64,000 nt of DNA from assembly GCF_910592395.1 (NCBI RefSeq), contig NC_088315.1:10792501-10856500 (forward strand), written 5' to 3'. A program made the translations under genes and the position numbers. The notes beneath the pieces were generated by a model that saw only the letters and a program-made list of their open reading frames with translations, did not search any database and was not told the DNA's origin. This document shows positions 30,201 through 55,728 of the stretch, piece by piece (positions within the stretch are counted from its first letter, which is position 1; every line of letters starts with the position of its first letter). This DNA comes from Lineus longissimus (Eukaryota; Nemertea; Pilidiophora; Heteronemertea; Lineidae).

Positions 30201-30417
30201 TACAGACACCTGGCGAAATTTGTAAACATGTTCTGCAAAAGAAATTTTCATGGAATACATTATTTCCCACCAGAGAAATATGCCCCACAACAAAGGTTTC
30301 ATTTTAAGAATACTCCACAACTTGATAGTAGAACAAGACGTTGGAACTTCCTTGATTGAGCTGAATGTGGATGTAACACACTTTAGATATACCTGGGGGG
30401 GGGCTCAGTTAGCAAAT
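27238..30417. other. About 3.2 kb without a recognisable gene
   Basis: It contains TA-rich simple sequence (about 27490 and 27588) and scattered short frames with no family resemblance or shared splice sites. The motif atatgccccacaacaaaggtt near 30275 recurs near 57455 and points to another old dispersed repeat. The 3' UTR of the large minus-strand gene must lie in the right-hand part of this stretch. Confidence 0.5.
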
Positions 30418-33020
30418 CTAATCTTTGTTATTGTCAGCTCTCATAGCCTCGGTGGACTTTGGCAAAACGACTTTCTGTTTTCCCGTCACCAGGTTGTTCA
30501 TCTTTGTTCTTATCTGAGCTGGAGTCCTTGTTCCTCCAAGTTTTTCAGCAACAGCTGCTATTTCAGACCCTGGGGGATTCTTCTTTGCTTTTATGTATTT
30601 ATCCATGTACCTGAACAATATGCCATTTTCTTCTTCAGACCATCTTGCTCTCTTAGTTTTGAACATGCCGTCGTCAGTGGAAACCATCTTTCTCTTTTGA
30701 CTGCCATACTTCTGATCATCTGCAACCGCAGTAGCTGAGCAGCTTGGTTGTGGTTCTCCATCAAATGGACTGCTTCCATCGACATCATCACAAGTAAGTT
30801 CCCTGCTCTCTAACTGGTCACCTCTTTCCAGCTGATCATTTATGGAAACCGGGGGAGGAAGTTCTTCAATGTTAATGGCATCAAGTTTCTTTCCCTGGAA
30901 CTTATTGATGACACCATTCTCCATGGCAATCAAAACACGTGCAACCTTTGCTCGTTCAAGCACTGAGCTTTGCAATCTGTACACGTCAGTGTGGATGTTG
31001 ACATTATGGCCCATGTGGTCTGCTACCATCTTCAATTCATTGGCGGACATGTCAATTATTTGTGCAGTGGTGGCCATGTATTTCCTTAATCCCCTGGTTC
31101 GGATACTCGCTGGATTTCTGAGCATAGGGCATTTGCTCGTTACCACTCGGATTGCTTCACAGCCATCTATGGGTGAATTAATTTCTCTCGGTCTTGAAAA
31201 CACATATGGGCTGATGATCTTCCTCTTTTTTATCAAATACTCAATCTGTTCTACCATGTCTGGAGAAAGTAAGATGAAGACTTTGCGGAGTGACCTGGTA
31301 CTCTTCCCCCTCACCTCTATCAGTGCCATTCTTTTTGCCAGGACTCTTTCACTGACATCAAGAGATGCTAGTATTTCTTCATTATCCTTCTCGCTCTTTC
31401 TCCCTAGGAAGTCACTCACTTTCAACTCTTCTACCTCGCTCACTCTGCGCTTATTAAACAAGACAATTCTTGTCAACACTAGCTGACTTAGCCATTTCAG
31501 ATCATCATTAGATTGGTTTGTCCTCTGCATGGCTTTGCATATAACTGTGGAGAGCCAGTCTTTCAGCCTGACCAAATCCGTTGTAGAAGGAATATTTTCG
31601 GACTTATTGATCTTGAGCAACTTCTGTTTTCTCACACTAACAGAAGCTACATGATTATTCCAATGAGCTTCATATTCTTCCTTGAAGCATCTGGCTTCTC
31701 GCTGCATTTCCTCCGAGTCTTCTCGCATGCCCAAGCTAATCTTAAGAAGATTAGCCTGTTTGATGTAATGGCCGAGCACAATCGCAAGCTGTGGGGAACC
31801 ACTCTCTGCTGCAAGCTGCTTAACAGTTTTCACAACTAATTTGAAATGTCTAGCACTTAAAAAGTAGGTTAATGATTTCCGAAGAGCCCCCAATCCATCA
31901 TTAAGGGCTTTCAGTAGTCTGCCGAGAGATCGCACCTTTTGGCGAATGTTCATGAGATCTTTTCTCCTCTGGTCTTCGATTTCACCCACTTTACTCAGAA
32001 CAGATGCAGCAAATTCCCTTATCAAGGGATCATCAAAGCATATCTTCCTAATCCCTGGGTTAGATTTGGTTTCTTTCATGGCATTGATGAGATCATCAAT
32101 CATTTCACTTTCTTCGTCAGTTGAAGATGTGCGCAGAAATGGTTCAAGCATGATTCTTGCATTTCGGAGACAGTTTGTTTCAGGTTGTTCTCCACGTGGT
32201 CTGATGGGACAGTTTTTCATATGAAGCCATAGAGAATCCTTCAAAAAGAAGCCCACGCAGTATTCACATGGCAAAAAATCGTGTGCTTTTCTGTCACGTT
32301 TTTCACTTGGCCGCCTGGAAACAACAAATTCTCCCTCACCCAATTCAATGCACTTTGCATTGTGCTTGAAGTTCCCCCTATTCTGCAAAAGAAGGAGGGC
32401 ATTTTTTCTTTCAACAGATTTGACAGGAGCCATGAGTGCTGATTTTACATCCGATTCATTGCAATGAACTGCAAGATAGTGAACTGAAATCTTTGATTGG
32501 TATCGCCTCTCGCAATAAAGGCAATAGTCACTTTTACTATAATTTCTCTTTTCACTTTTGCTATCGCTGTGCTGCGGAACAGTTATGTGTGCAAACTGCA
32601 TTTTCACCTTGGCCTTAAGTGCCTCCCCAACATGATCTTCCGCAGCTTCATTTAAATCCATGTCTACACTGTCTGCACTATTTTCCAAGTCACTGCATTG
32701 TCTCTTTATATCGCTTTTACCATCTCTGTACCGTGGAACACTTTTCTTTGCCTTATGTTTCTCCCCATGATGATCATCAGCTTCGTTGCAGTCCATGGCT
32801 TCATCATCTGCACTATTTTCAATGATCACAGTATCAGATTCAGAGTCACCATCCGAGTCCGTTAAATCATCGTTCGGTCCCTGCTTATAATCAGGATCCT
32901 TTACAGAATCATCGTCATCATCATGTTCATCGTAACCAACTGTTGAACCATCACTCTCTGTGGCATGTCCAGAATCCATTGAGGTTTCAACATCAGGTTC
33001 ATTATCTTTATTCCAATTAG
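30418..33020 (-). CDS. Last exon: zinc fingers, tyrosine-recombinase-like domain, Myb/SANT-like domain
   Basis: Acceptor tcactgtattgcag precedes 33020. The frame enters in phase 1 and is open for 866 codons to the stop at 30418-30420. Residues are counted from the internal Met at 32979. An acidic, Asp/Ser-rich head (1-120) is followed by a C2H2-like motif (C153, C156, H167, H172) and a C2HC motif (C238, C241, H253, C257). A helical region comes next, then a tyrosine-recombinase fold (about 490-690): Arg in FNKRRVSEVEELKVSDF (511-512), Lys in VRGKSTRSLRK, RGLRKYMATT (R632), HMGH (H658) and HTDVYRL (Y667). The usual first His of the HxxR box is replaced. The C-terminus (776-835) is Myb/SANT-like (KRARWSEEENGILFRYMDKY). 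Crypton transposons use such recombinases; a long intact frame suggests domestication. Confidence 0.88.
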
Positions 33021-36000
33021 CTGCAATACAGTGAAGAAGACAGATTAAAAGACAAGTGCAGAAAAATTACCCAATGAGGTGGAGAGTGATTGCTCAGGAT
33101 GGGCAAATGAAATACAGTACAACCTCTCTATTGCGGACACCCATGGGACTGGGCCCAGGTGTCCGCAATAGAGAGGTGTCCGCAATAGAGAGGTTATGCA
33201 AAATCGTCCGATAGGTGGATTTGAAGTTCCCGCCTTGCAGGTCTTGGTTTTCTCTGTGTCGACATCTAGCGTAGAAACTTTAAACCTGTTGGCTGATCGG
33301 TATTTGCTTGTGATGTTGCGTTGAATGACGTGAGCTACTTTGGAACTCAGAGCGTGAATAATCTCTCTAGTAAAAGGTGCCCCTTTTATTGCAAAATCTC
33401 CTCGACATGTGATAATGTGTCAAAAAACACCATAATTTCTGTCCATCAGCCACCTTTGATAAATAATTATTTTTTTCTAATTTCTCTACTAACGCATATT
33501 CGCCGCAACACTGACAAAACCGCGTGGATTTATGAGTGTCCGTAGACACAAAAGGCCTATGTGATTAGTTGAAAAGATGAGTAAACAAATGCCACGGCTT
33601 AATTAGGATACAAAAACACAATGCCAATGCCGCGGCTTAATTAGGATACAAAAACACAATGCCATGGGGTAATTACGTTGATTAATTGCGCGAATATCAC
33701 ACCTGTCGGGCCTACTTGACTCTCCAAGCGCAAGCGGGAAGCCATTGTTTTTGCCTACTGTCCGTAATTGGGAGGGAATTGGACCAAAAATTGGCTATCG
33801 CCCTGTCCGCAATTCGGAATAGAGAGGTGTCCGCCGTACAGAGGTTTTTGTTATTGGAAATGACTTAGAAAAAATCGGGACTGGCCGGACGTGTCCGTTA
33901 TGTAGAGGTGTCCGCCTGGCAGAGGTGTCCGCAGAGGGAGGTTCTACTGTAGTTCATTTAGCTGAAATGGGAACCATTATAATGCCATATTTGCCAGCAA
34001 AACTAACCAGCACAAAAATCCACCATTCATTATCAATCTCTGCTCACTTTTAACTCTTTTGCAAGCACAATGCTCTAACCTTCTGCTTAACCGCACCCGG
34101 TACACTTTCCAGGCATCCTCGGATCCGGGCCTTCTCAGGGAAGTTTTAGGTCAACACATGCACATAACATGTAAATACATGGAAGTGGAGATCATAATTG
34201 TGGGGCCTTAGCAGTTTATATATGTCCCACACCTGAACTATGCCCCAAATGTAAGTCTCTCTGTCAGGGGCCAAGGTTCAGCAACCATAAAACAGTATCT
34301 CTACCCTTGAAATTGAATGTAAAACTAGATTGCCAGATACTCATCGTCCCAGAACCAGGTCATACACTGACTGACCATGTATCTTTGTAATGACAGCAGG
34401 TAGTGTGTGGACTCATTTTGCTCGATGATTAACTCCCTCTAGTCTACAGACACAGGATGCCCCTGGCCGAGTTCACCAATTAATCGAAGTACCTGTTGCT
34501 TTCACATGATCACATGGTCATGAAAGCGGTGAAAACTACAACCAAGTTTCCATTGTTGGTGATTCATGCGGAAATAAATCAGATGCTATCTATTCTCCTT
34601 TGAAAAGGTTTACACCACTGGCTAGGATTTAGTACTAGGAATGTCTCTGGTTAGGGTGAGACAGATCACTCAATAGTGCAAAAGCATTCTGATGGCAAAA
34701 AAGACTGAAGGCCACGGTGAACCTGCCACGGCAACAGAGAGGATGAGCAAACCATTCAGCGAATGTAAGGTGAGTTATGTGCACGAGGGAATTGAGGAAA
34801 TCTTGCTGGTAGCCAATATCAAGTGGAATGAAATGGCCAGGGCCATTGTGCTCACCTCATGTGGAGGAAAGATGGATAAAGAGCATGGTATTGTGTCATG
34901 TAGTGTTAGGTTTGATGTAGGTCCAAGCAGTTACAATTTCCCCAAAATGGCCAATTTACAGTACATTCGACCTCTGTGACCTTGAAAAGTAGGTCAAATC
35001 AAAGAAGACCCGGGTGACACATTGAATGGTTGTTAGAATTAGATGTACCTATGATATAAAATTGGTGCCAATCGGGCAAGTCATTACTAGGAATAATAGC
35101 ATTTTGAAGAATTTAGGATTTGGCCCCCTCCCTGGAGGCCAAACGGCAAATCAGATCGCACCAAACTTCAGTACCTGAGATCACCTGACCAAGGGGTACA
35201 TGTGTACTTAATTTGTGATCAATAGTCATTGCAGTTAAGAAACGTGCCATAGTTACGGCCTGACGGCGAATTTACGCCATTTGACCTCTGTGACCTTGAC
35301 AAGAAGGTCAAATTAAAAACCTGTGTGACATATACTGTATGGTGGTTAGATATACCCATGATATCAAATTGGTGGCAATCGGGCAAGAAGTTAAGGAATA
35401 ATCACATTTTTAAGGTTTTTGGATTTTGCCCCCTGGTGGTCAAGTGGTGAATCATATTGGACCAAACTTCGGTCCCTGAGATCACCTGACTAAGGGGTAA
35501 ATGTGTACCAAATTTGGTATCAATAGTCATTGCAGTTTAGAAACGTGCCATCGTTACATCCTAACGGCCAATTTACACACCATTTGACCTCTGTGACCTT
35601 GAAAAGAAGGTCAAATCAAAAACCCGGAGGATATATGATGCACCTTTGCTAGAAGTACCTACCATATTTTTTTCAAAATTTCCCGACTACTATTAAGGGA
35701 GATATTGCATATTTTCACTTTTAACGTTTGGCCCCCTGGTGGCGAAACCATGACACGAATCGGACCGAAACTTGGTCTCCAAGGTGTCATTACATAAGGG
35801 TACATGTGTACCAAGTTTCAACTCAATAGCTCTAACAGTTACGAAACGTGCCCTGCTAACGGACGACGACGACGACGACGACGGACGACGGACGCCACGG
35901 TATGGGATAATCTCACCTCTGCTAAGAGGTGAGCTAATGAATGGATGGAATGGGGTAACCAACCCATTAAAACCACTGTCCAGCTCTTGATCGTGGATGA

Positions 36001-39000
36001 ATAGAAATGACAACCTCAACAATGCCCTAGACACGAATTGGAATACATCTTTGAGAGAGAACCCACAATTGTTATAACAACAGATGTATCCATCAGGGGA
36101 GATGACACAGCATAGGGTGGAATAGTCTGGAAAGAAGGCAATACCGTTTTTCAGAAGGTGAAGTGCTACAAGACACCCTAGTCTGGTTGTCACGTAACAC
36201 GAAGTTATATGAAATGTCCAGGGGACATTGTGCTCACCTGGGAATGATTAAGTGGGAGACAGTATTCAAGGCCTACACCCCCTAAAATTCAAGGTAGAAT
36301 GTAACCATGACAACACAAATTGGAATCAAGATTAATTGGCGATGATTTTTTGTATGTCAAGTCATGTTGTTATAAGACATCCACACACCAAGTTTCAACT
36401 TCCTAGGCTCAAAGGTAAGCAAGCGTGCCACCATCATTGTTGACGGACGACGATGATGCCGACAGACTGCTGTGTACATAGCCACTTAAAACAAAAATAC
36501 CTGTAGACCTAATGGAATGTCCAATTAACTTCTAAGTAAACAAAGGGCTAGCCCAGGAGGCGAGATCAAAATTTTGTGGCCAATTGTCTTTTCTCTGATA
36601 CATACTGGTAGGCCTATGGATATAATATATCATTTAAGTGCTGGCCGATGGCATGATGGAAAAATCTAGAAGGTTGGAGAAGAAAGCAGAGTAGAGCTGT
36701 GCTTGCTTCATGTCTAATAGTCTTGCTGATGAGCGAGCACCCATCGCAAGTGCAAGAGTTGATGTAGGCACATGGCTAGGGCAATTAGGTTAAACCACAT
36801 TTGGATTGAAAAGGTGATCACAGGCACAGATCTATGATAACCATTCTTCCCTTTGCAGATACTTCTTTTAGCAGGACACCCTCTCTACTAGGGGCAGTAG
36901 TGATGGTCCCAAATTGAATCATTTCTATCCAACTTGACCTCTGTAATCAGGACATCTCCCTATTAAGGACAGCATTTCTCAGTTGCAGAGGTGTCCTTTA
37001 TTAAATAAAGAGGATCTGCTGTTTGCCACTCTGACTGCTTGATATAGCACTCAAAAACTAACTCACCATGTGTGTCTTCCAGCTCCTCATCAGGGCCATT
37101 AATGTCCAGATCATCTGCAGAGATGCCAGCAGAGGCTTCCAATGGTTGCTTTTCAACTGAAAATATTATAAACTCTAAATAACAAATCAATGAAATGGTC
37201 AAAGCATTTATGGTAATCTTTCAATGAATGAAACCTTCCTTGTGGGGCATTTCCAAAATGTGGGGCATATATCGGTAATGGGTGGTTTAAAACACAAGGG
37301 CCACAAAGGTCTGGAGCTCAGCTGAGGCAGTTGAGACAATAGGTGTAATTATTGGAACTTCCCTTTGCAGACACCTTTCTTAGCAGGACAGTCAGTCCTG
37401 TGTACAACTAGGGGCAGTAGTGATGATCCAAAATGGAATCATTTATATACAACTTGACTTCTGTAATCAGGACACCTCCCTATCAAGGACAGCATTTCTC
37501 AGTTGCAGAGGTGTCCTTTTTTAAATAGAGAGGATCTGCTGTTTGCCACTCTGACTGCTTGATATAGCACTCAAAAACTAACTCACCATGTGTGTCTTCC
37601 AGCTCCTCATCAGGGCCATCAATGTCCAGATCATCTACAGAGATGCCAGCAGAGGCTTCCAATGGTTGCTTTTCAACTGAAAATATTATAAACTCTAAAT
37701 AACAAAACAGTGAAATGGTCAAAGCATTTATGGTAATCTTTCAATGAATGAAACCTTCCTTGTTGGGCGTTTCCAAAATGTGGGGCATATATCGCCGATA
37801 TTATCGGTAATGGGTGGTTAAAACACAAGGGTCACAAAGGTCTGGAGCTCAGCTGAAGCAGTTGAGACAATAGGTGTAATTATTGGAACTTCCCTTTTCA
37901 GACACCTTTCTTAGCAGGACAGTCAGTCCTGTGTACAACTAGGGGCAGTAGTGATGGTCCCAAATTGAATCATTTCTATACAACTTGACCTCTGTAATCA
38001 GGACATCTCCCTATTAAGGACAGCATTTCTCAGTTGCAGAGGTGTCCTTTTTTAAATAAAGAGGATCTGCTGTTTGCCACTCTGACTGCTTGATATAGCA
38101 CTCAAAAACTAACTCACCATGTGTGTCTTCCAGCTCCTCATCAGGGCCATTAATGTCCAGATCATCTGCAGAGATGCCAGCAGAGGCTTCCAATGGTTGC
38201 TTTTCAACTGAAAATATTATAAACTCTAAATAACAAATCAATGAAATGGTCAAAGCATTTATGGTAATCTTTCAATGAATGAAACCTTCCTTGTGGGGCA
38301 TTTCCAAAATGTGGGGCATATATCGGTAATGGGTGGTTTAAAACACAAGGGCCACAAAGGTCTGGAGCTCAGCTGAAGCAGTTGAGACAATAGGTGTAAT
38401 TATTGGAACTTCCCTTTGCAGACACCTTTCTTAGCAGGACAGTCAGTCCTGTGTACAACTAGGGGCAGTAGTGATGGTCCCAAATTGAATCATTTCTATA
38501 CAACTTGACCTCTGTAATCAGGACACCTCCCTAAGGACAGCATTTCTGAGTTGCAGAGGTGTCCTTTTTTAAATAAAGAGGATCTGCTGTTTGCCACTCT
38601 GACTGCTTGATATAGCACTCAAAAACTAACTCACCATGTGTGTCTTCCAGCTCCTCATCAGGGCCATTAATGTCCAGATCATCTGCAGAGATGCCAGCAG
38701 AGGCTTCCAATGGTTGCTTTTCAACTGAAAATATTATAAACTCTAAATAACAAAACAGTGAAATGGTCAAAGCATTTATGGTAATTTTTCAATGAATGAA
38801 ACCTTCCTTGTGGGGCATTTCCAAAATGTGGGGCATATATCGGTAATGGGTGGTTTAAAACACAAGGGCCACAAAGGTCTGGAGCTCAGCTGAAGCAGTT
38901 GAGACAAAAGGTGTAATTATTGGAACTTCCCTTTGCAGACACCTTTCTTAGCAGGACAGTCAGTCTTGTGTACAACTAGGGGCAGTAGTGATGGTCCCAA

Positions 39001-42000: not shown

Positions 42001-45000
42001 ACAAGCTGTTGATGGCGAACTTTGCCACATAAAATACATGAGACGAACAGGTAATTATGGAATCGTGATGGATGATTCTTCCCCAATGGAAATCTAAAAT
42101 ACGACATATTTTTCAACCATATGCCCATAGTTTGATAGTATACATGTCAGTAATATTAGCTGGTACTTTTCTGTATTGCAGGATTGTATTTTGGATGGCT
42201 TGATGATGAACATGCATCTTGGCAGGACAAGGATGACATTCGCGCTAGATTATCAGCACCATCCATTGATCGCCATGGACATTACATATTCTCAAAGAAA
42301 GATGACCAGAACATGAAACTATATAAACTGTAGTTCACTGTTTAGATGTGATGATCCAGTTGGACAGTTTGGCCCTAATGGCATACTAACTATTTTGATA
42401 GTAATTTGCTAAATTTCTGCTGACATTTAAATATTGGTGAAGTTTTACACCATATTCATTGTAAAAGTGTTTAAGTTTCTGAGATACCGGTGATTTCATG
42501 GTAATTTTTGAATACTTTTGATTTTGAATAAACGGTTCATGATATAAAGGTCAAATTGCTCCTTTTTCTGTCAAATTTCAATTTTGCCACCAAGTAGCTT
42601 GCCACCTTGACCTAAAACTCACAAAAAATACTTTCTTTAACGTAAGGAAGTTATCCTGTAAGTTTCATGAATATCGGAGAAAGTTCACAGTTTACCATTT
42701 TTGGCCTTTTTGTCTAGTGTCCCGACAAAAAATGGTGCAAAAAGGGTTAATACGCAAACCAGCCATGAAACCCTCCTAACCACTGGTACTAGAGATGCTG
42801 GGGGACCATTTGAGCTATATTTGGTCAATTTTGACTTAGGGCACATGGAGAACTTGTTGTGCGAAAAGGTGGTAATTTCACCTTTTGGTGGCAAAAAGCG
42901 CCCCCTATACTTGTGCGCCCAAAGTCAGCCGCCGTAAATTTCCTTTAAATCAAAGCAGTAGGTGCTAATGTATCATAATACGCATGAAACACCCTGGCTG
43001 ACTTAGGGCGCAAACCACACAACCTCTCTGAAGGTGTGTGTAATTTCGAAATGTCGCGTTTTGCAGCGCCACCTATGGGCTGCGCCCTAAGTCAGCCGCC
43101 AAAATTTTCACATTTTCTGAAAGTCAATACCCAATAGACTTACACGCATGAAAATCTCTGTGGCTCACTAAGGGCGCACAGAAATACCAGCATTTGAAAA
43201 CCACATTTTGGTTATTTTGCCATTTAGGCCCATTTTGACCCCAATATTCCAGGGGCCCCTAAAAAAAAAGCAGACCCTATTGAGGATAGAAAATGTGATT
43301 TCCGTCCGTTATTAACATATATCTACCAATATAAAAATTTTGGAAGAAATCTGAGAGGGTCATGAATCACCCTCTAATAGGATCTTGCCTGATTCTTATA
43401 AAAACTGGCTCTTAAGACAGTTCATTATGTTTACATCAGAATCAGATCTGAATGCATTCCTTTCATCTGCCATCTAAATGGCCCTTTTATGACTCACCTC
43501 GTTAAATGTTAACAAGAGTTGAGGGACGTCTTCGAGGCCAATTAAAAATTCTGGTGTTGCTTCTATTTGTTGGATTATCATACTTAAGGTCCTCCTGGTA
43601 AAGAGTTTTGCCTGCAAGTACAAAAAGGTTAGGTATGATTATAAAACTAAACAGAATTAACAACTTTTGATAGGCTTTGTGGAGCGGAAATGTTGACTAT
43701 AAATGCTATAATTGCCAATGCCTATGAGATTACTTTTTTTCGGACTTAACTTTAAATTTTATGTCAGTGTTCAGGCTAGCTGATCATGACCATTAGTGGA
43801 GTTGTGGACATTCGGATGATTCATTCGGACTACATTCTCTGATCCAGAGGAATGATAATTTTGAGGGTTGAGGGTGGGGTGGAGGACGACTACGGTCGTC
43901 GGGAAGGATGGTATGAAGTGGCGCTGTGGTATCTCCACTGAAGCCGAGACTACCACAGTCTCTCTTCAGTGGAGATAACTAAGCATGTATTCATCTAGGG
44001 TTATACTGCTTTAGATCTATAGAAGCAACAATGAGTGAATAAAGGAACACGATCGCCTAGCTTACCCGCTATTTGCAATTCACGATTTAAGGGGAGCTTT
44101 GCGAACATTGTTGGGGAAAGAGGGTCTGTGCCCGCAAGGCGAGAACCACATACTCTTCTGGCATTAACGAATCGAAACAAAACGATGCAATGCGATATTT
44201 GGCAGATTTGCCAGCAAAACGTAAATGGGCCAGTAGACAAAAAGTAGAAGTCATAAGTGACCCGATTTCGGCTCAGATGTTTCTGGGTAGTTTTAAATGC
44301 TCGCTGTGAGTGTGACTACGCATAATGCAAAGCAGTGTGGCTCTAATCTACTGACTCTTTAAAACTAAAGACTATAAATAAATAAAGGTCAGACACTGAC
44401 CTGTTCAACTCCTTCGGCTCCCTGTTGGCTAACGCAAATGGCATGGCTGATGTCATGATTGAGCTGGATTAGAAACAGCCTCCCTGAAAGTGAATAGCCC
44501 ACTAGAATAGAATATTCACACCAGGCAAACTGCATGAAGTACCCAACCAGAACCGATACCTTTGCTAAAGCTAGCCGCAGACAGACGAATAGCGCTCAGC
44601 ATTATTTGGCACAGCATATTGCAAGTTGCTTGCGTCGGGAAGCGCTGTCCAGAAGCACTGTGCATGCGGATGACTTGCAACTCGGGCTAAGCTGTTTTCA
44701 AAAACACCGATTTGTGGGCTTTTATGCACGACTCATCACATGTGGCGAGGGCGGCATAAACAAATCATGTAGCGCCGGAAGGCACAATCTGATTGGCACC
44801 AACATTATGTCACCGCTAGGGATTGTAAATAATGCCACAATAATGCCACAATGCGCAAGCAACCACAGACAGCTTGTGGCTGAGCCAACAAATGCTGTGC
44901 CAAATATTAAACTGATTTGATTTTAGAAATACGGCTGTGTCATGCTGTGCAAGCTGGAATAGCACGGAGCCATCAGATTCAGAGACAGGGGTTTTTTTGT

Positions 45001-48000
45001 GTCTCAGCCAATTTGAATATGGCTGTGCTAAATTAAGTAATGCTGAGCACTACAGTATATGTGTCTACAGCTAGCTTTAGCAAGGTGGGGCACAGCATTG
45101 GACAAATTAAATGGTGAGCTTTTATCAGTTCGGCAAAAGTGATTATAATACAACGTTGTGTTATTCAACAACTTTGCGTTGTCATAAAGTGCAACATTGT
45201 TTTTTATGACAACGATAACGTTGTCACTTACTGCAATCTTCAGCTTCCGGTACCATCGGAGCAAGGTTATCCTCATCGGAAAATTGCCTCCTGTTTCATA
45301 GAGGGCAGCACAATATTTAACATCGATCAACCCAAAGCAAATTTTGAGTTCTACCAAGGATTTTTCGAATTTTGGACGATATACTAGTATCAGTTTTATC
45401 ACTTAAAATGTTCTTGAAATCTGTTTTTGTCAACTAGTAGTTGTATTTATACAATGGTTGTTCAGTCAGCCGGCCACGCGCCGTTTTTCTGTCATAAAGA
45501 CGCGATTCTCTGACCACTGCGACAGTGGCGGCTCCTAGTGGGAGATCGTGCCATAAAAAAATCGTAATAAAAAATCGTAATAAAAACCTTGCACCACAAC
45601 AAGTGTTTGATAAAAGTATGATACCATTTTTACAGAGGTTGATATTGATACCATTTATAACGATAAATTGATATTTCAAACTTGGACAACCATATTTTTC
45701 ATCTTCTATTCAGGTGAAGAAGCGCAAATATTCAAAAAAATTTTATGTCAAATTTGGGGGCCAACCCCGTCTTAAAACGCCGAATTGAAATAAATCACTG
45801 TCTTTCTTCACCTATATTTTGTTTTATAGATAAGCTAAGGTCATTATAAATCTATCCCATGCGGCTTCATGGGTTGTTTGCAGGATTGATAGAGATAACA
45901 AGCAATTTCCAAACTGTGCCAAATCACGCAAAATTGCCACCTAAAATTATGTTGAGTAGCAAAAAATGACGTCAGAGTGGTCAGAGAATTCACCTGAAAA
46001 CAGCCCGTGGCCGGCTGACTGTGTTGTATAATACAACTATTATGACAACGTTCTATTATAAGCACTTTTGCCGAACTGTTAAAGCTGAATTGATTATCTG
46101 AATATTAATAATGCACTGTTGTCAGCACTCGGATCATGCTCGTCACATCAGCTTCTCAAGAAGACCAGTTTCTAATGCTACACTTCTCTATGCCAAAATG
46201 CATTTTTGGGATGCATCAAAAATCCCAGCTAGAGCTCTATAGGGGGCAGTTGCCCTGAATATCCTGATTATTTTTCATTAGGGCCTTTATTTGGGGGTAC
46301 CATGCCAAAACTATTACTTGTACTTACAGGAATCAACATCGTCAATGGTTTTTCCTGGCTCCTGAAATTAAAATGAGTCCAATAAACTAGTGCTCACAAG
46401 TTCAAGCGTTTTAAGGATAAAATATCTTCAAGCTGGGAAGCTGGGTTAGTGTCAACCAAACTATCTACTGTGCACAATCCATTTGTCCGGGCCGTAAGTT
46501 CAGAAGTATTACGAGTATGAGTATTCCAGTTAAATAAACAAAAAAACCAAAAGAATCAATCTCCCAACTGAACACACATTCAATTTGACAATGTTGTCAT
46601 CTACAGGTGCACAGGTGTCATCTTACTTGTAAATTTACCAGATTCCCGGCCTAGGAACGACACAAGGGGAAGGGAGCCACCAAGCGTCTTAGGGGGGTAA
46701 ACTAGACAAAATTGATTTACAGAAAATGTGAAAATCTGCGGGAATATAACCACCCATACTAATCATCTTTGGATCCACAACATACCTTTCTCCACTCCAA
46801 ATCCTTCTCTCCGTAATCATACGCAACTTCATCCCCTTTCTGTATTTCTTTTGTGGAATACAGGCAGAGATGAGGCTGACCATTTGTTACCATCTTCTGC
46901 ACTTTGGCATTCCTCTCCCTCCCTTTAGCATCATTCACTAGTCTCGCCAGGCACACTTCTGAAGTGGCATCAATGCTGAGAAAATCGACAGAAATCATTT
47001 GTAATCATGGTGGAAGATGATGATTTTTGGTACGGCAGATTGTACTTAACCCCATGAGCTTGCTTAACTCGCCAAACGGCAAGCACAAAATCGCCATAAT
47101 TTTTTCCAAACTCACTGTTTGGCAAACGCAAATTTTCTAGTCATCTGTAGTCTGAAGTCACACATTTCCTTGTACATGTTCCATGTGTAAACAGCTCAGG
47201 CTGCACCTGTAGTGTTTATTGCACAGTTTACTGGATTCAAAATGACGGAAAGACCCATGTACGCTAGTCACTACTAGTGTCGATAGCTTGGCTAATCAGC
47301 GCTAGTGTCAGTGTGATTCCAACCTTTAAGCTATCCAAAAGGCAATCATGTCATATGTATTAAAGAACTGCCTTACCAGCATTCTTTTCCACGGTGGGAA
47401 AAAAAATATAGATAGTTGCCCAGTTGCCTTTTTTTGTACTGGAGCCCTCTACGGTCACCCTCATCACTTGTAATGAGTTCGCCAGAGTACCGCAGCAGAA
47501 ATGTTCCTGATTTTATATCGTGTGTGGCAGTTATACCTCTACCTGAAAATGTACAATTTTGAAGGGATAGGCCGAATTGTAGTTAGACACTTTCTGTTGC
47601 CTGTTGTATGGTTGTAAACATATCCCAAATTTCTTCATGGGGCATTAGGGTAAAGACTGACTTTAGACTTAAAACTTTCAGAAATATGTTTGGTTTGTGC
47701 ACTTGGATTAAAGATGTTCTTTGTCCAGAATCACAACCTGTATGACCTGAAATGAATGATGCAAATGAATTTGAAAATGTGCTTCTTCCTATCCATGCAC
47801 TTGATTGGGGACAACGTTTACATAACGTAGTGTTTGCCGTCGTCGTGTCACCATGCATTTTACATTACCGTCACACGACATCTTCGAAATGTTTTCCCCA
47901 ATCAAGTGCATGGATCTATAATCCTACCTTTTCTCGGACCAAAAAAATTCATTTGGAGACTACAACAATCCAGCATTTCCTTCTTTTCAAAATCAGCACC

Positions 48001-51000
48001 ATTTTCACCTCGCCTTCCCCTCGTCTGTATTAAGAAAAGAAAGTTCAGAATAAGTATTTATTGATAATCGAAGTATGGGACACTGAATCATAGGGCAGGT
48101 TGAAATTAGAGGTGGACGGAAAACAGAGCATAGGTGAAGCTCCCGATGTGCGCCGCCCAACCGGGGTCAGGTGGCCCTCCCCAGACATGCCAGAAATATT
48201 TGAATTTGAGAAGGCTCTATATGCGATTTCCAAGCATCTGAGAGTGAGACCCAATTTCTATGTTGTTTTATCTGGAAAAAAGCAAATACGGCAGCCTGCT
48301 GCGTTGTTAAAGTGAAAGCGGTGCGTGCTGGGACTGGGAGACCAAATACTTCATCGATGATACGCAGCGTATCGGGTAAATAGCCCGTAGATAATTTATG
48401 CGGAGTGATCGTTGCGCCACCAAACAATTTCCTGCCGCGGTCAAATATAGAACTACACGTACTGTAGCCGTGGTAGCACCACAGGCAAGATATAGGCAAT
48501 GCCGCCACCCTGACCCCAGGGGCCGCCATCCCAAGGAGGGGGCTTTTTGGGGCCACCACCCCCAACATTTTTTTTTTTTTTTTTTACTCATTTTTGGTAA
48601 TTGAGGTGGCCGCACAAAATTTAGTTCCAAACACAACCAATGAGGGATGTTGGCCTTGTCCTGAATCTTTTATTCTTACCATTTCGAGTACATGCCACAG
48701 CAATAACTTATTGTTGATGCAACAGTAATAGGATTGACATCCCAGTGTCAATGAGCCAATCAACAGCCAGAAGAAAGTCATCAGTATCAAAAAAACAAAT
48801 GCAGTTTAATCCGTGGTATTCCAAATCGGTGAAGTCATATTCTTTATCTGAGAAACGTTGGTAGCTTGCAATGTACTCTTCTGGTTCAAGAAATAAAATC
48901 AGGATGGTTCCAACTTCTACACTGGTCGTTCGGGCGTGGCCAGGCATAGCTGAACACTACATCATAAGCCCCCCTCTTAGGAGGGGCTCTTAAGATACAC
49001 GTGTGTGCGGGAGTATATAATGTAAATGAAGTGAAATAAAGAGAGTAATTATTGTATATCCAACAAACAATTTTTTTTGGTTTTTCAAAATGGCGCTGAA
49101 TAAATAAATCAGACCAGTTGTAGCGCTGAATTATAAATCAGACCAGTTGTAACAGGTTACGAGAACATCTAATTTAAATCTTCATGGGAATTCGCTACAT
49201 ATGCCTAAGAAATTGGCAAATTATATTGATATTTTTATTAGAGAAATATCCGTCATAAATAATGACAGAAAAGGGTGGTTTATTTCAATTTTGCGTCGAC
49301 ATGGTCGAGGTCACGTGACATAAAAACAAAACAATCGCACACACCCGTCCAAAAAAGGCACTTTAAGAAAAATAAATACGTTTTTCCAGCTTAAAACCAC
49401 ACTGACGACTAAGTTATATTGGTCTACTGCCCAAATCTGAAGTATCAAAATGAATCACAAACTAGAACTAGCTCTATTTAGCTATAGTTGCGTGAAAAAT
49501 TCGGGTGAGCGACGTACATTCTGTACCCTAGCGGCCAATAAATAAACTACTTTCAGCCGTCTGCTCCGGTCTCGTTAGGGAGTTTTTCCCAAATGTACGC
49601 GATGATGACGTGCCCCATTAACAGGACGTGACATCTATTTTAAAATGCGTTTCCAAAGTGAATGCATGAGGACAATCCATTTAAGTGTCGTATATCACTG
49701 GAAACGCCCGATTCCCGTGAATAAGGACAATCACAATGTATTACATTAATTACCAAAACAAAAATGTGTCGGAAGGAACTATATGGATGGTCCCATCGCA
49801 CCCCCCCTCCAGCAGTATGACACAGAAGGGCTAGTTGACTGTCCACCGGGGGGGTTTGGGGGGAGCTTCCCCCCAACGCACTGGTAAAAACCTATGTCGA
49901 CGGAGGGGGGTTTGGGGGGTGTCCCCCCATTGTAACAGCTGTAGTTGTTAGAGCTTGCACTTAACATATGCTCGTAGGGGGGTTCGGGGGAGCTCCCCCG
50001 ACCTAAAGGGGGGCTCACTAAGTCCTTGACTTTACATATTAAGACCCCCTTTAGGAGGGGCTCTTAAGATACACGTGTGTGCGGGAGTATATAATGTAAA
50101 TGAAGTGAAATAAAGAGAGTAAATATTGTATATCCAACAAACATTTTTTTTTGGTTTTTCAAAATGGCGCTGAATAAATAAATCAGACCAGTTGTAGCGC
50201 TGAATTATAAATCAGACCAGTTGTAACAGGTTACGAGAACATCTAATTTAAATCTTCATGGGAATTCGCTACATATGCCTTAAAAATTGGTCAATTACAT
50301 TAATATTTTTATTAGAGAAATATCTGTCCTAAATAATGACAGAAAAGGGTGGTTTAGGCCCTATTTCAATTTTGTGTCGACATGGTCGAGGTCACGTGAG
50401 TCGTGACATAAACAAAACAATCGCACAGACCCGTCCAAAAAAGGCACTTTAAGAAAAACAAATACGTTTTTCCTGCTTAAAACCACACTGACGACTAAGT
50501 TATTTTAGTCTACTACCCAAATCTGAAGTATCAAAATGAATTACAAACTAGAACTAGCTCTATTTAGCAAAAGTTGCGTGAAAAATTCGGGTGAGCGACA
50601 TTCTGAACCCTAGCGGCCAATAATTAAACTACTTTCAGCCGTCTGCTCCGGTCTCGTTAGGGAGTTTTTCCCAAATGTACGCGATGATGACGTGCCCCAT
50701 TAACAGGACGTAACATCTATTTTAAAATGCGTTTCCAAAGTGAATGCATGAGGACAATCCATTTAAGTGTCGTATATCACTGGAAACGCCCGATTCCCGT
50801 GAATAAGGACAATCACAATGTATTACATTACCAAAACAAAAATGTGTCGGAAGGAACTATAATTACTATATGGATGGTCCCATCGCACCCCCCCCCCTCC
50901 AGCAGTATGACACAGAAGGGCTAGTTGACTGTCCACCGGGGGGGTTTGGGGGGAGCTTCCCCCCAACGCACTGGTGAAAACCTATGTCGACGGAGGGGGG

Positions 51001-53007
51001 TTTGGGGGGTGTCCCCCCATTGTAACAGCTGTAGTTGTTAGAGCTTGCACTTAACATATGCTCGTAGGGGGGTTCGGGGGAGCTCCCCCGACCTAAAGGG
51101 GGGCTCACTAAGTCCTTGACTTTACATATTAGGGAGCTCTAGCGAGCTTTATGGTTAGAGAGTGTGTGTATACCATCAACGAAAAAAACTTGACCCGGAA
51201 CCAGAAAACCTCCACACCCAGGTGACATTTTTGCACGCGAATCGTATACGCTAATGCACAGCAATTTACCTGGGGAGAGATTTTCTTTTTCCAAACAATT
51301 CAGCGGGACGCTACGATGTTTACGCACAGAAGTTGCTGTTCGGTTGAAGATTTCGTCAAAACAGGGCCGAATCAAAGTGTAACGATACCCTGGGGCGAAT
51401 CGAAATGCATTAAACAACAAGCTGCATCGCTGCCAGAGATTATTTTTCTCTTTCCGCGAAGAAATCGTGCTTTGAACTGGCAAAATTCCGCAAAAGATTT
51501 TCCGTCTGCTAACTTTTCCGTAGTTTCAAGCGCACCAACATGATCGGTCCGGGGCTGCCCGTTTCGACGACGATTTCGTCAATATCATGGGGTGTGACAA
51601 TATGTCGACGGTCTGGTTCCATTAATAATGCAATAATCTTGAAAGTACATTGGTCTCAATGTCTATTTCTCCGTTTCCATGACAAAATCCTACCTTGAAA
51701 CCTGAAACCACTCGTCCACAACACAAGCCATTTCTATTTTCAGAAAGCGCATGCGCACTAACTCAAACGCACGCGCTGACCTCAGGTCTCACTAGCCGGT
51801 GCGGAGGCCAGGCCTACTTGCCTCCAAAAATGACGCGACGTCATTTCATGCATACCCCTGTTCCAGCGGCTGTAGACTTGACAGTACCTTACTCTCACAC
51901 AAACCTATACATTTCTGAATAGCTTGTCTCTTGAAGAATACATCTGACCAAGTTTCAACGTCGTCTAGACTTACAGTCATGCATAGACTGATGTAGCACA
52001 ATGCATGAGACACCCTGTATATAATATATAACGCAAATTTGAAAAATTTCACCTCTATGCCTTATAACTTCAAGATTAACACCTGATCACCACTGGCTAG
52101 TGAGACCTCAAACTATTCAGGACGGGGGGGGGGGTCGGCTAAGGTCTTTTTGAATTAGAATATAAATCTTAATTACACTTGGGTCTTGGGATCATTATGC
52201 TTATCTCCGGGCAAAAATACCTATCCTTCTCCTGTTGTGTTTAGTTTCCCACATTCTCCCCACTTATTTTCTATACTGCGACAGCGTCTATTGGGTCAAC
52301 TGCCATGATGGCATCATCCTAACTATATCCCCCCTCTCCCACCCACCAACTACTCGCCATCAATCATTGACATTGTGTGCTAGCCAACTGCTTCTTCGGT
52401 CAACTGTCATGATGGCATCATCCTAACTATATACCCCCCCCCCCCCCCGAGTCTTCTCGCTCACCAGCCCTATTAACGAAGAGCTCCCTATCAAGGCCTG
52501 AGCCTTCCTCATATTATGACCTTGTATGCTAAATCACATGCATGCTCCGCTCATTGTGTGACATCCATATGACCATGCATCACTCGCGGGAGAATGAGAA
52601 GGTGTGGGCAAAGGGCTTGGATACGGGAGAGGCCTACATATAAAAGTGGGCCGTTCGAAATTATGGGGTTAGCCGAAAGTTTGACGTCTGTAGGCGGTAT
52701 TCATAGATCTGTAGTGAGTTGACCCTACAATAACTGACTGAGCATTGAGACAGCAGCCGGCCTCGCCCTCGCCCGGCCTCGGCCATGTCGGCTCGTTTTT
52801 TTGACACATTATTGAAAAAGGTGCATTAGGCCTAGGCTTAGGCCCTACTTTTCGATTAAAAAACATTATGAACATACCGCAGAGGATTTGATTGTTATCA
52901 TCGTCAGGCCTATGGCACATATTAAACAGATGGCTATATAAACAATCAGGAGCATAACCAAAACTTACCTTCATGCTGCTTCGTACTTCCATATTAATTG
53001 GATGCAT
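30418..53007 (-). CDS. Large gene: SET methyltransferase fused to zinc-finger, tyrosine-recombinase-like and Myb domains
   Basis: Minus-strand model assembled from splice sites and codon phase. Exons, 5' to 3': 53007-52969 (tentative), 48024-47928, 47542-47377, 46975-46786, 46361-46328, 44483-44401, 43611-43498, 40281-40179, five 90-bp exons (39244-39155, 38724-38635, 38207-38118, 37676-37587, 37156-37067), and 33020-30418. Every junction is in phase, with AG acceptors and GTRAG-like donors. The product is near 1290 residues. Order: SET domain related to KMT5A/SETD8, helical linker, acidic repeats, two zinc-finger motifs, Crypton-like recombinase domain, Myb/SANT-like domain. KMT5A-type enzymes methylate histone lysines; the other domains suggest DNA binding. 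I infer a nuclear chromatin protein built partly from transposon parts. The first exon is weakest, and two adjacent genes instead of one fusion cannot be excluded. Confidence 0.7.
33115..33949. mobile_element. Tigger/pogo-like non-autonomous element in the last intron
   Basis: It starts cagtacaacctctctattgc and ends with the inverted gaggttctactg, flanked by TA dinucleotides (33113-33114 and 33950-33951), as for Tc1/mariner-type elements. Internal repeats of gaggtgtccgcaatagagag occur near both ends. No transposase is seen. It lies 95 bp upstream of the last exon's acceptor, on the intron side. Confidence 0.75.
33950..34830. other. Intron sequence, nothing recognised
   Basis: I see no gene or repeat here. 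A short frame starting at 34692 runs into the MITE that follows and is not conserved. Confidence 0.5.
34831..35937 (+). mobile_element. GCTCACC-ended non-autonomous element, full-length copy 2
   Basis: This matches 14390-15530 along its length, including the terminal ctcacctctgctaagaggtgag hairpin, and differs mainly by a shorter ACG-triplet tract. It lies in the last intron of the large minus-strand gene. The high identity between the copies suggests recent activity. Confidence 0.87.
36213..36475 (+). mobile_element. Shortened relative of the GCTCACC-ended family
   Basis: It begins gaaatgtccaggggacattg followed by tgctcacctg and ends near gacggacgacgatgatg, the same start and end signals as the full copies, with the internal modules missing. 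Confidence 0.6.
36840..39440. repeat. Five tandem copies of a 517-531-bp unit, each with one exon
   Basis: Exon start to exon start distances are 520, 531, 517 and 520 bp. Each unit holds one 90-bp exon and its flanking introns. Each also contains a stretch resembling the Tigger-like ends at 33115 and 33949 (ttgacctctgtaatcaggaca and gcagaggtgtcc), so an element copy was amplified with the exon. Units differ by a few percent and by a 10-bp indel near cgccgatattatcgg. Confidence 0.93.
37067..39244 (-). CDS. Five copies of a 90-bp symmetric exon (30-residue acidic repeat)
   Basis: Exons are 39244-39155, 38724-38635, 38207-38118, 37676-37587 and 37156-37067. All have an acceptor ending atattttcag and donor gtgagt, and all start and end in phase 1, so any number can be spliced in tandem without a frameshift. 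Each adds a repeat of the type EKQPLEASAGISADDLDING then PDEELEDTHV. The copy at 37587-37676 differs (SVDDLDIDG). The repeats are acidic and probably disordered. They link the SET half to the recombinase half, and alternative splicing could set the linker length. That use is inference; the exon structure is directly visible. Confidence 0.8.
39630..39960 (+). mobile_element. Fragment of the GCTCACC-ended family
   Basis: It contains tttgacctcagtgacctt, an inverted AGGTCA, the tagaagtacctac...accatat motif and gaaacgtgcc, then aaaggctcacatgag, in the order of the full-length copies' last module. Confidence 0.65.
40179..40281 (-). CDS. Exon of the large gene (helical linker, part 3)
   Basis: 103 bp with acceptor tatcttttacag and donor gtatat. 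It enters in phase 0 and leaves in phase 1, matching the exon before it and the 90-bp repeat exons after it. It encodes CTKSHDEETRKSAEILLVKF and a basic tail KKSKNRPDSNNLEE. The charged, amphipathic pattern suggests helices. Confidence 0.6.
40638..43411 (+). mobile_element. Kolobok-like foldback transposon with inverted arms of about 750 bp
   Basis: The ends GAGCCAGTTTTTATAAG and complement are flanked by TTAA on both sides (40634-40637 and 43412-43415), the target duplication of Kolobok and piggyBac elements. The ends lack the CCY start of piggyBac, so Kolobok is favoured. Arms are about 40638-41385 and 42650-43411 and include a repeated gccctaagtcagcc motif. The centre holds remnants of a spliced gene on the plus strand. 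The element lies in an intron of the large gene, between the exons at 43498-43611 and 40179-40281. Confidence 0.75.
41555..42333 (+). pseudogene. Gene remnant carried inside the Kolobok-like element
   Basis: The first frame (41555 to about 41776) encodes an acidic segment with a start MRSAKDAQGAKMFSPEEYLA and ends at gtaaca. A second coding stretch, about 41916-42050, reads HAGDYAIIQCGEKAYVGMVQ and ends CHIKYMRRT at a gtaatt donor. After an intron with a tattgcag acceptor, 42182-42333 continues LYFGWLDDEHASWQDKDDI, then SIDRHGHYIFSK, and stops. The Tyr/Trp/Asp pattern resembles small C-terminal domains found on several invertebrate transposon proteins. The splice from 42050 to 42182 is in frame. 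The link between the first and second stretches is not clean, so the gene is probably degenerate. Confidence 0.5.
43498..43611 (-). CDS. Exon of the large gene (helical linker, part 2)
   Basis: 114 bp, phase 0 at both ends, with acceptor tttttgtacttgcag and donor gtgagt. It encodes AKLFTRRTLSMIIQQIEATP, then EFLIGLEDVPQLLLTFNE. The heptad-like hydrophobic pattern suggests paired helices. No named domain is recognised. Confidence 0.62.
43930..43977. repeat. 48-nt intronic hairpin (14-bp plus 6-bp stem)
   Basis: TATCTCCACTGAAG pairs with CTTCAGTGGAGATA. Inside, GAGACT pairs with AGTCTC around the loop ACCAC, with a small asymmetric bulge. It lies in the intron between the exons at 44401 and 43611. 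It is short for a microRNA precursor. Confidence 0.8.
44401..44483 (-). CDS. Exon of the large gene (linker, part 1)
   Basis: 83 bp with acceptor ggctattcactttcag and donor gtcagt. Two of the three frames contain stops. The open frame enters in phase 1 and leaves in phase 0, exactly what the neighbouring exons at 46328-46361 and 43498-43611 need. It encodes (W)RLFLIQLNHDISHAICVSQ and QGAEGVEQ. Confidence 0.55.
44562..45083. mobile_element. 522-bp MITE with TTGCTAAAGCTAGC ends
   Basis: The left end ttgctaaagctagccgcaga and the inverted right end (about 45062-45083) match with a few differences and share the next motif, gctcagcatta. It lies in the same intron as the 955-bp element at 45125. 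The long plus-strand frame inside is not meaningful. Confidence 0.7.
45125..46079. mobile_element. 955-bp TIR element with CAGTTCGGCAAAAGTG ends
   Basis: The ends are cagttcggcaaaagtg followed by ttataat, and the inverted copy, next to TA dinucleotides (45123-45124 and 46080-46081). The inverted similarity extends inward through cagccggccacg and its complement (near 45468 and 46005). No transposase is visible. TA flanks suggest a mariner-type family, which is tentative. Confidence 0.7.
46328..46361 (-). CDS. Small exon of the large gene just after the SET domain
   Basis: 34 bp with acceptor ttttaatttcag and donor gtaagt. It enters in phase 0 after the SET exon and leaves in phase 1. It encodes EPGKTIDDVDS. 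Alone it would be unconvincing; the phase match on both sides supports it. Confidence 0.5.
46786..46975 (-). CDS. SET domain exon, C-terminal half (KMT5A/SETD8-like)
   Basis: 190 bp with acceptor tgtcgattttctcag and donor gtatgt. It encodes (C)IDATSEVCLARLVNDAKGRE, then NGQPHLCLYSTKEIQKGDEV and AYDYGEKDLEWRK. These match the second half of the SET fold in KMT5A-type enzymes: the IDAT strand, the RLVN-x pseudoknot segment, PHLCL, and the YDYG motif with the catalytic-site Tyr. The usual NH of the SET motif reads ND here. That change is also known from fish and invertebrate KMT5A-like paralogues, as far as I recall. Donor and acceptor phases fit the exons on both sides. Confidence 0.82.
47377..47542 (-). 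CDS. SET domain exon, N-terminal half
   Basis: 166 bp with acceptor aattgtacattttcag and donor gtaagg. It enters in phase 1 and leaves in phase 2, as the next SET exon needs. Together with the last base of the previous exon it encodes the SAM-binding start GRGITATHDIKSG, then LRYSGELITSDEGD and LGNYLYFFSHRGKEC. This is the classic SET beginning (KGRG, Y-x-GELI, Y-x-Y/F-x-F). Joined to 46975-46786 it makes a complete SET domain of about 118 residues. Confidence 0.82.
47791..47915. repeat. 125-nt intronic hairpin with a perfect 21-bp stem
   Basis: Positions 47791-47811 and 47895-47915 are perfect inverted repeats (atccatgcacttgattgggg plus one base). The 83-nt interior has further partial pairing (gtcgtgtcacc with cgtcacacgac). 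It lies in the intron just before the first SET exon. Confidence 0.85.
47928..48024 (-). CDS. Exon immediately upstream of the SET domain
   Basis: 97 bp with a strong acceptor (tttcttttcttaatacag) and donor gtagga. Only one frame is open. It enters in phase 0 and leaves in phase 1 with a final G, which completes the first Gly of the SET KGRG motif across the junction (FFGPRK joined to GRGITA). It encodes TRGRRGENGADFEKKEMLDC and CSLQMNFFGPRK. Confidence 0.65.
48025..48964. other. Intron-like region with one isolated minus-strand frame
   Basis: A minus-strand frame at 48708-48947 (79 codons, starting MPGHARTTSVEVGT, with FTDLEYHGLNCICFFDTDDF) has coding-like composition, but its donor options do not fit the large gene in phase. 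I cannot place it. A poly-A/T tract lies near 48570. Otherwise nothing is recognised. Confidence 0.35.
48965..50038 (+). mobile_element. G-rich repeat of about 1.08 kb, copy 1
   Basis: It begins taagccccccctcttaggag and ends actaagtccttgactttaca. It is nearly identical to 50040-51131 and 58962-60039. The right third has three spaced G/C palindromic blocks, for example ttggggggagcttcccccca, ggggtttggggggtgtcccc and ttcgggggagctcccccgac. No coding region is seen. The first end (ccccctttaggag) and the last (cctaaaggggggc) are weakly inverted. Confidence 0.85.
50040..51131 (+). mobile_element. G-rich repeat of about 1.08 kb, copy 2 (in tandem with copy 1)
   Basis: This has the same ends as copy 1 and follows it directly, head to tail, joined by a single short ctttacatattaagaccccc stretch. 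It differs by small indels, such as an extra attacta near 50866. Confidence 0.87.
51132..52968. other. Large-gene first intron region, no other gene recognised
   Basis: It includes a pair of direct copies of catgatggcatcatcctaac (near 52303 and 52408) and C-rich runs (52433-52448). The minus-strand frame at 51139-51483 looks like chance. Confidence 0.45.
52969..53007 (-). CDS. Tentative first coding exon of the large gene
   Basis: On the minus strand a short frame, MHPINMEVRSSMK, ends exactly at a consensus donor, gtaagttttgg. It leaves in phase 0, which fits the exon at 48024. A second in-frame Met lies at 52992. The distance (4.9 kb) and the small size make this a weak call. Other first exons, or additional exons in between, are possible. 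Confidence 0.35.
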
Positions 53008-53370
53008 GCATCGTGTTCGAGTGGGAGAGTCGCGGGGATCGTCTCATTATCTTGCCAGGTAAAAGCTAAATGGAGGGGGCCGTCTCAAACAGTCAAGCGT
53101 GTTTTGATGCAAAAAACGAAGTGACTTCATCTGGTTATGGAGCTAGCTCATTGTAGCTCCACTCTAGGTCCATTGTCTATTATAGAGGGAATTCGCGATT
53201 TGGGAAGTCAGCTATATACTTCCATGGGCTATGGGCAATGGGTCTTTTTACTGGGTCTATAAACCTATACTTATAGGCTTAATAGTAGGCTATACAAAGT
53301 CTATAATTCGGGAAGGAAGAAGTGAAGTTGTTTTTGTTTATTGCTGACTGACTTCACCAACCAACATTGT

Positions 53371-54735
53371 GGAGGCATGGGATGGTCATAACCACCATTG
53401 TCGGCGAGAAGGAGACGACATAGGGACTGCCAATATGGCTTGATCGTATCAGACAAAGTCACAACCACCATTGTGGGTGATAGGAGGAGACGATACAGGG
53501 ACGGTCAAGACCTGATCGTATCAGGTATAGTCACAACCAACATTGTGGAGGCATGGGATGGTCATAACCACCATTGTCGGTGAGAAGGAGACGACATAGG
53601 GACTGTCAATAGGACCTAGGCATATAGTCACAACCACCATTGTCAGTGAGGAGGAGACGACACAGGGACTGTAAATATGACCTGATCGTATCAGGTATAG
53701 TCACAACCAACATTGTGGAGGCATGGGATGGTCATAACCACCATTGTCGGTGAGAAGGAGACGACACAGGGACTGTCAACAGGACCTAGGCATAGTCACA
53801 ACCAACATTGTCGGTGAGAAGGAGACGACGTAGGGACTGCCAATATGGCCTGATCGTATCAGACAAAGTCACAACCACCATTGTGGGTGATCAGGAGGAG
53901 ACAATACAGGGACGGTCAAGACCTGATCCGTATCAGGTATAGTCACAACCAACATTGTGGGTGAGGAGGAGACGACACAGGGCCTGGTCACAACCAACTG
54001 TCAATAGGACCTAGGCATAGTCACAACCAACATTGTCGGTGAGAAGGAGACGACACAGGGACTGTCAACAGTACCTAGGCATAGTCACAACCAACATTGT
54101 TGGTGAGGAGAAGACGACACAGGGACTGTCAATATGACCTGATCGTATCAGGTATAGTCACAACCAACATTGTGGAATCATAGGATGGTCATAACCACTA
54201 GTGTCGGTGAGAAGGAGACGACACAGGGACTGTCAATAGGACCTAGACATAGTCACAACCAACATTGTCGGTGAGAAGGAGACGACACAGGGACTGTCAA
54301 TAGGACCTAGACATAGTCACAACCAACATTGTCGGCGAGAAGGAGACGACATAGGGACTGCCAATATGGCCTGATCGTATCAGACAAAGTCACAACCACC
54401 ATTGTGGGTGATCAGGAGGAGACAATACAGGGACGGTCAAGACCTGGTCGTATCAGGTATAGTCACAACCAACATTGTTGGTGAGGAGGAGACGACACAG
54501 GGACTGTCAATAGGACCTAGACATAGTCACAACCAACATTGTCGGCGAGAAGGAGACGACATAGGGACTGCCAATATGGCCTGATCGTATCAGACAAAGT
54601 CACAACCACCATTGTGGGTGATCAGGAGGAGACAATACAGGGACGGTCAAGACCTGATCGTATCAGGTATAGTCACAACCAACATAGTGGGTGAGGAGGA
54701 GACGACACAGGGCCTAATCACAACCAACATCGTTG
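53371..54735 (+). repeat. Minisatellite, 64-bp basic unit with longer variants
   Basis: The basic unit is close to gtcacaaccaacattgtcgg, tgagaaggagacgacacagg, gactgtcaataggacctaga, cata (64 bp). Variants contain cctgatcgtatcagg, itself a palindrome, and are arranged in higher-order groups. There are about twenty units. It is not a CRISPR array: repeats are contiguous and of animal minisatellite type. Confidence 0.92.
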
Positions 54736-55703: not shown

Positions 55704-55728
55704 TTGTGGCTGAGGCACACTTCCAATG

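Follow-up and report, generated by a model that had tools for sequence, protein, structure and literature searches.

The stretch of DNA analysed here, which we call the window, comprises 64,000 nucleotides from the ribbon worm Lineus longissimus (G000:C8:10792501-10856500 of a 391,118,348-base assembly). Its minus strand carries a long gene, running from 53007 down to 30418, that is predicted to join a SET histone methyltransferase domain to a tyrosine-recombinase-like (YR) region. The exons are, in order, 1, 2, 3, 4, 5, 6, X, A, B, five R exons and Y. When spliced, they give a frame of 1,345 codons including the stop, with no internal stop, and we recover the same stop-free, in-phase, minus-strand chain that an initial annotation of this DNA had described. 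Every internal junction is GT-AG. The initial annotation counted ten junction types that agree in phase; the agreement is confirmed, but our recount gives 11 types rather than ten. What it overlooked is that the whole stretch it described lies inside a repeated element (27502-61745). Copies of this element are named here after their contigs, e.g. C4, C6 and C16.

The exons, all on the minus strand, differ in how securely they are placed. Exon 1 (52969..53007) is the least certain and has no match in C16, a divergent copy whose YR region is 55% identical to that of the window. The start codon is probably the second ATG, at 52992, since in C9 and C11 a 4-base deletion breaks the frame from the first ATG whereas the frame from the second stays open. 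Exon 2 (47928..48024) has a counterpart stretch in C16 (51% identical, E 1.8e-6), and exon 3 (47591..47746), which has no significant match there, is in frame and bounded by AG/GT in six of six copies. The first half of the SET domain is encoded by exon 4 (47377..47542; 65% identical in C16, with equal phase) and the second half by exon 5 (46786..46975; 77% identical, with a Pfam SET match). Four linker exons follow, namely 6 (46328..46361), whose splice sites and phase are equal in C16, X (44401..44483), which is kept in C16 in the same phase and 9 bases shorter, and A (43498..43611) and B (40179..40281), both conserved in C16. All four are present in the NCBI gene model LOC135488563 (P0052). 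The five R exons, which that model does not contain, form a tandem array (37067..39244) of 90-nt units spaced 517-531 bp apart (39244-39155, 38724-38635, 38207-38118, 37676-37587 and 37156-37067). The last exon, Y (30418..33020), encodes an acidic region, zinc-finger motifs, the YR region, a Myb-like tail and the stop codon. It has an open frame of 882 codons, has 8 close copies in the genome and matches the NCBI protein LOC135494501 (P0001). Among the open frames listed for 30000-54000 no other exceeds 216 codons, leaving one recognised gene.

The number of R exons varies between copies, from five in the window, C9 and C11 to six in C6, seven in C10 and ten in C15. The fused frame is intact in all six of these copies. 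It has 1,345 codons in the window, 1,375 in C6, 1,405 in C10 and 1,495 in C15, and it is open over 1,341 codons in C9 and C11 when counted from the second ATG.

Joined, exons 4 and 5 match the Pfam SET model PF00856 with an E-value of 1.9e-15 (57.6 bits against a cut-off of 22.4) over model positions 2-105 of 105. The closest solved structure is KMT5A (SETD8), with an E-value of 7e-18, and the next molecule is SETD2 (6e-11). The tyrosines of the YDYG motif are kept in the element SETs, where the motif of C4 reads YSYG. In contrast, the NHS motif of KMT5A has become ND in the six element SETs that were aligned (window, C16, C4 and three fishes); the window, C16 and fish sequences read RLVND and C4 reads RLTND, where KMT5A has RLINHS. 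The element SETs also differ from KMT5A in the W-R or W-R-K that follows YDYG, and in sitting within a mobile gene. Between the window and C16, simple counts give dN 0.17 and dS 1.9 for the SET domain, dN 0.30 and dS 0.67 for the linker, and dN 0.38 with saturated dS for the YR region. In the SET domain, amino-acid-changing differences are fewer than silent ones.

Exon Y carries two zinc-finger-like motifs and, in order, the residues Arg, Lys, Arg, His and Tyr, which are found in 21, 20, 21, 21 and 19 of 21 aligned family members. The usual first His of box II is replaced by R or T in the alignment rows inspected. PF00589 was matched in 3 of 16 YR members, with a best E-value of 4e-4 that is still under the cut-off, and was not matched in the window's own protein. 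An hhalign comparison of the YR alignment gave E 0.12 with lambda Int and E 0.07 with Cre, beside 0.21-0.77 for five shuffled controls; Cre box I fell on the invariant Arg region, without significance. A PDB profile search with the same alignment returned weak zinc-finger matches only (best E 0.03), and in PHROGs two families matched one YR member each and none matched the window protein. Neither DUF3504, the Crypton-type YR model, nor DUF3435 is among the Pfam matches of the window frame at E-values up to 1. The assignment of exon Y to the tyrosine recombinases is a weak one, suggested by motif order and weak profile matches. The Myb-like tail has a Pfam match at E 0.011, below the cut-off.

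The domains named in the initial annotation can be set against these results. The complete KMT5A-like SET, the zinc-finger motifs and the five residues in place are all borne out. Its Crypton-like recombinase is suggested by the R-K-R-H-Y set but not by DUF3504, nor by PF00589 in the window protein. The comparison with lambda integrase that it proposed is not significant by hhalign, and the Myb/SANT-like domain is present as a Myb-like match that does not reach the Pfam cut-off.

That SET and YR belong to one spliced, fused protein is supported by the exon chain of C16, the NCBI model P0052, the single frame of C4 and predicted fish proteins with both domains. C16 keeps exons 4, 5, 6, X, A and B with the same order, splice sites and phases, and its length changes are multiples of three. 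P0052 (338 aa) starts just before exon 5 and continues through 6-X-A-B-Y; it holds half of the SET and only the start of exon Y. In the C4 paralogue, half a SET (a weak match, E 7e-4), a long repeat linker and a YR region share an open frame that runs for 1,496 codons. P0001, the main NCBI model for exon Y, contains no SET.

The pairing of the two domains was also examined across the genome, where 67 YR matches were merged into 42 clusters and compared with 67 SET matches. A same-strand SET lies within 40 kb upstream of 24 of the 42 clusters, a count that includes the 8 close copies, so the 24 are not independent. At the other placements there were none upstream on the opposite strand, one downstream on the same strand and none downstream on the opposite strand. 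With the SET positions shifted, each contig being taken as 20 Mb, the mean was 0.17 and the maximum 3 over 2,000 trials. The remaining 18 clusters have no SET match within 40 kb upstream. Conversely, 41 of the 67 SET matches are unpaired, and host SET genes of the ordinary kind will account for many of them. A genome search with the C4 YR gave 91 matches, and a second large YR-like frame, on C2, has no SET. For short exons the chance of a stop-free single frame is 8-57% each, which is weak evidence taken alone. The C16 chain, P0052, the C4 frame and the excess of paired clusters (24 against 0.17 expected) agree with the initial annotation that the in-phase joins are beyond chance, and the fish proteins add to the case for the fusion it proposed.

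The element that houses this gene spans 27502..61745 in the window, with a right end that is split by an insertion. The window copy is ~34.2 kb long with its nested insertions and ~22.9 kb without them, the insertion boundaries being approximate. End to end, C6 measures 28,974 bp, C10 32,986 bp, C15 26,441 bp and C9, the shortest full copy, 22,148 bp. The eight copies of exon Y are 99-100% identical and lie on seven contigs, and one of them is cut short. We aligned ~40 kb around five copies (C6, C10, C15, C9 and C11) to the window, together with small stretches for C5 and a second C8 copy. The alignment starts sharply at 27496-27502 in four of the five copies and at 28613 in C11, and it stops at 57497 in all five. 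Outside the shared ends the flanks are unrelated among copies, where examined.

At the left end the element reads TATATATACTTACTAG (27502..27517, plus strand), which is common to four other copies with different flanks. The right end region (57200..57497, plus strand) is directly followed by TAATGTATTTATA in seven other copies; in the window the last bases, GATAATGTATTTATA, are found at 61731..61745 on the plus strand, moved away by the insertion of ~4.2 kb. The right end of the element reads GTATTTATA, and the DNA beyond it differs in the seven other copies and is often TA-rich. Searching the genome with the 298-bp right end gave 13 matches, of which 8 are full, one per copy. The partial ones are a 36-bp match on C5 and a 70-bp match, at 79%, on each of C20, C16, C12 and C1. 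On these last four contigs a SET lies 11-30 kb off on the expected strand (paired by eye), and on C16 and C1 there is a YR cluster as well. With the 279-bp left end there were 12 matches, six of them full-length (93-100%), one from base 23 and five short. In the stretch taken around the C5 copy no left end was located; at G000:C5:15372990-15373240 there is a left end that lacks its first 22 bases, with no exon Y match at that place. The second C8 copy has a left end whose outermost bases differ.

In each of the four other copies for which the left and the right end were inspected (C6, C10, C15 and C9), TATA is present at either end. The insertion sites seen are mostly TA-rich, and they lend no support to the targeting of telomere-like sites that the initial annotation had suggested. 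Target-site symmetry has a p-value of 0.013 at one site and is not significant at three of the four. Within 24000-60500 no inverted repeat of at least 24 bp joins the ends. Compared in inverted orientation, the two ends agree at 8 of their 9 outermost bases, so they may include very short inverted repeats.

The interior of the element holds further repeats. Subterminal tandem repeats with a unit of ~64 bp occupy 53358..54712 (plus strand). The sequence ATGCCCCACA, counted on either strand, occurs 13 times inside 27501-57497 (at 30280, 37241-39347, 55108, 57270, 57418 and 57451) and twice elsewhere in the window. It falls in the part of the right end that is common to divergent elements, and it is a possible binding site. 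Several insertions interrupt the window copy. At 33115-33949 a stretch of ~835 bp, absent from the five aligned copies, has CAGTA..TACTG ends beside TA, and resembles a short element of the Tc1/mariner type. The insertion at 40634-43415 begins at TTAA and has inverted repeats of 701 bp (96%); we take it to be piggyBac-like, judging from the TTAA site, and a related insertion occupies a different place in C6. Finally, the 3.5-kb insertion at 48966-52515 contains two copies of a ~1.08-kb unit, and a third copy, at 58959-60039, lies inside the insertion that splits the right end.

The initial annotation had proposed a search for related metazoan proteins. A protein profile search built from 16 YR proteins, in which a capped list of 8,000 candidates was scored, gave at least 36 family matches. 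Among the 36 listed, PF00856 is found in 18, i.e. 17 fish entries from 8 species, each with both SET and YR, plus the Lineus model P0052; the other 18 have no SET. The fishes are Carassius, Phoxinus, Alosa, Anabarilius, Astatotilapia, Triplophysa, Pimephales and Cyprinus, with nine rows from five loci for Alosa and two rows with a partial YR for Cyprinus among the matches listed. In the fish proteins inspected the order is SET, linker (repeat-rich in several), zinc fingers and YR, and several have a Myb-like tail. The YR regions of the Alosa loci are 99.4-100% alike. Five other fishes are 86-94% identical to Alosa in this region, and Carassius (44%) and Cyprinus (35%) form another group. For P0022, P0028 and P0029 (from Alosa, Anabarilius and Astatotilapia), the comparison with Alosa gives 86-93% for the YR and 63-70% for the linker. 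The closeness of the fish proteins could reflect horizontal transfer or strong constraint.

The mollusc models (P0002-P0005) have no SET listed. In a YR tree of 18 rows, with a midpoint root for drawing only, the Lineus window and C16 group with molluscs, and Lineus C4 groups with Sinanodonta on the fish side. SET-fused members are found on both sides of the deepest branch (support 100/99), and the fusion may therefore be older than this split. A search for proteins of the length of the fusion with the Lineus SET as the query (1,349 candidates) found one plant-type SET protein, P0017, that is unrelated to exon Y.

We read the element as a large Crypton-like DNA transposon whose single spliced protein would join a recombinase-like region to a SET chromatin modifier of its own, and we give this reading a probability of roughly three in four. 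The zinc fingers and the Myb tail would bind to the repeats and the ends of the element itself. Strand exchange by the recombinase would cut the element out, probably in circular form, and insert it at short TATA-containing sites, so that TATA remains on either side. As part of this protein, the SET domain would methylate histones, the protein itself or its partners at the places where the recombinase sits. Such methylation might open the chromatin of the element for expression or recombination, or it might tie movement to the cell cycle.

Other readings of the same data deserve consideration. The element could hold two genes, an upstream SET and a downstream recombinase, that happen to lie on one strand with phases that fit. 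The absence of a SET from the main NCBI model of the last exon and from the annotated mollusc relatives would fit this. However, the intervening linker exons 6, X, A and B keep their phase in a copy as diverged as C16, P0052 connects exon 5 to Y, one frame of C4 encodes both half a SET and a YR, and fish models contain both domains; we regard two genes as very improbable. The element might instead be moved in trans by some other enzyme, e.g. one that creates TATA duplications, and the SET-YR protein would then be cargo or a regulator; this too is very improbable in our view. The TATA at both ends is readable as a 4-bp target duplication, the YR profile matches are weak and the outermost bases match when inverted at 8 of 9 positions, but the ends are not joined by an inverted repeat of at least 24 bp within 24000-60500, no further open frame above 216 codons overlaps 30000-54000 and the R-K-R-H-Y set is conserved.

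The initial annotation had called the recombination module domesticated. Segmental duplications of a domesticated host gene, with no current or recent mobility, would go with the mostly silent changes in SET and with the one group of fishes whose YR regions match that of Alosa at 86-94% across species. We give this reading little credence, as the copies on seven contigs share ends while their flanks differ where examined, and all four other copies inspected at left and right ends have TATA there. The eight close copies share ends, have unrelated flanks where examined and keep the fused frame open in six of six. They have the look of a recently mobile element, and the term domesticated is therefore unsupported. 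Three readings were rejected: chance joining of unrelated exons, in view of the exon chain conserved in C16; two adjacent genes, in view of P0052 and the single frame of C4; and a YR copy inserted beside a host SET gene, in view of the SET lying inside the element in six of six copies examined.

A number of known systems resemble the transposon that we propose. SETMAR is a single domesticated primate gene in which a SET is joined to a mariner transposase, whereas the Lineus SET-YR gene is multicopy and apparently mobile. The transposases of HarbingerS and MuDR are of the DDE type. In the parts of PMC12730594 that concern them, these elements of Phytophthora are described as DNA transposons that acquired a SET histone methyltransferase gene. 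Their hosts are oomycetes rather than animals, and the SET of Lineus is predicted to be joined to a recombinase-like protein. DUF3435 is the captain domain of the Starship elements. These are large fungal elements with a tyrosine recombinase and many cargo genes (PMC12134995 among others). The Lineus element, in contrast, has one recognised gene, the SET-recombinase fusion, and no DUF3435 match.

The nearest comparison is with the animal Cryptons (CryptonA and CryptonI), which, according to sections of Kojima and Jurka (2011, PMC3212892), are moved by a tyrosine recombinase, have no terminal repeats that could be found and are without a C-terminal domain. Cryptons have domesticated relatives (ZMYM, QRICH1 and KCTD1), and the words 'SET domain' occur 0 times in the text of that paper. 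Like Cryptons, the Lineus element lacks long terminal inverted repeats, and its mover may be a tyrosine recombinase. Unlike animal Cryptons, it is at least 22 kb long and has a multi-exon gene, zinc fingers, a Myb-like tail and a SET, and it does not match DUF3504. 'Crypton-like' is thus a fair description of how the element may work, but membership among the Cryptons is not established. Our literature search, which took in few subscription papers and had Repbase Reports outside its scope, yielded no description of a mobile element with a SET-YR fusion.

More tentatively, and at somewhat less than even odds, we suggest that the ribbon worm and fish elements, with recombinase kin in molluscs, represent an unnamed superfamily of animal transposons in which the mover has a built-in histone methyltransferase that would alter chromatin at any place bound by the recombinase. 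Transposons are usually regarded as being acted on by host chromatin. If our reading is true, the recombinase of this element, with its conserved SET, would act on chromatin itself, in cis. One could then test if a transposon modifies histones in order to evade silencing or to control when it moves. The finding also matters for genome annotation, as those fish genes that are multicopy and encode both SET and YR (one is named KMT5A) may be transposons.
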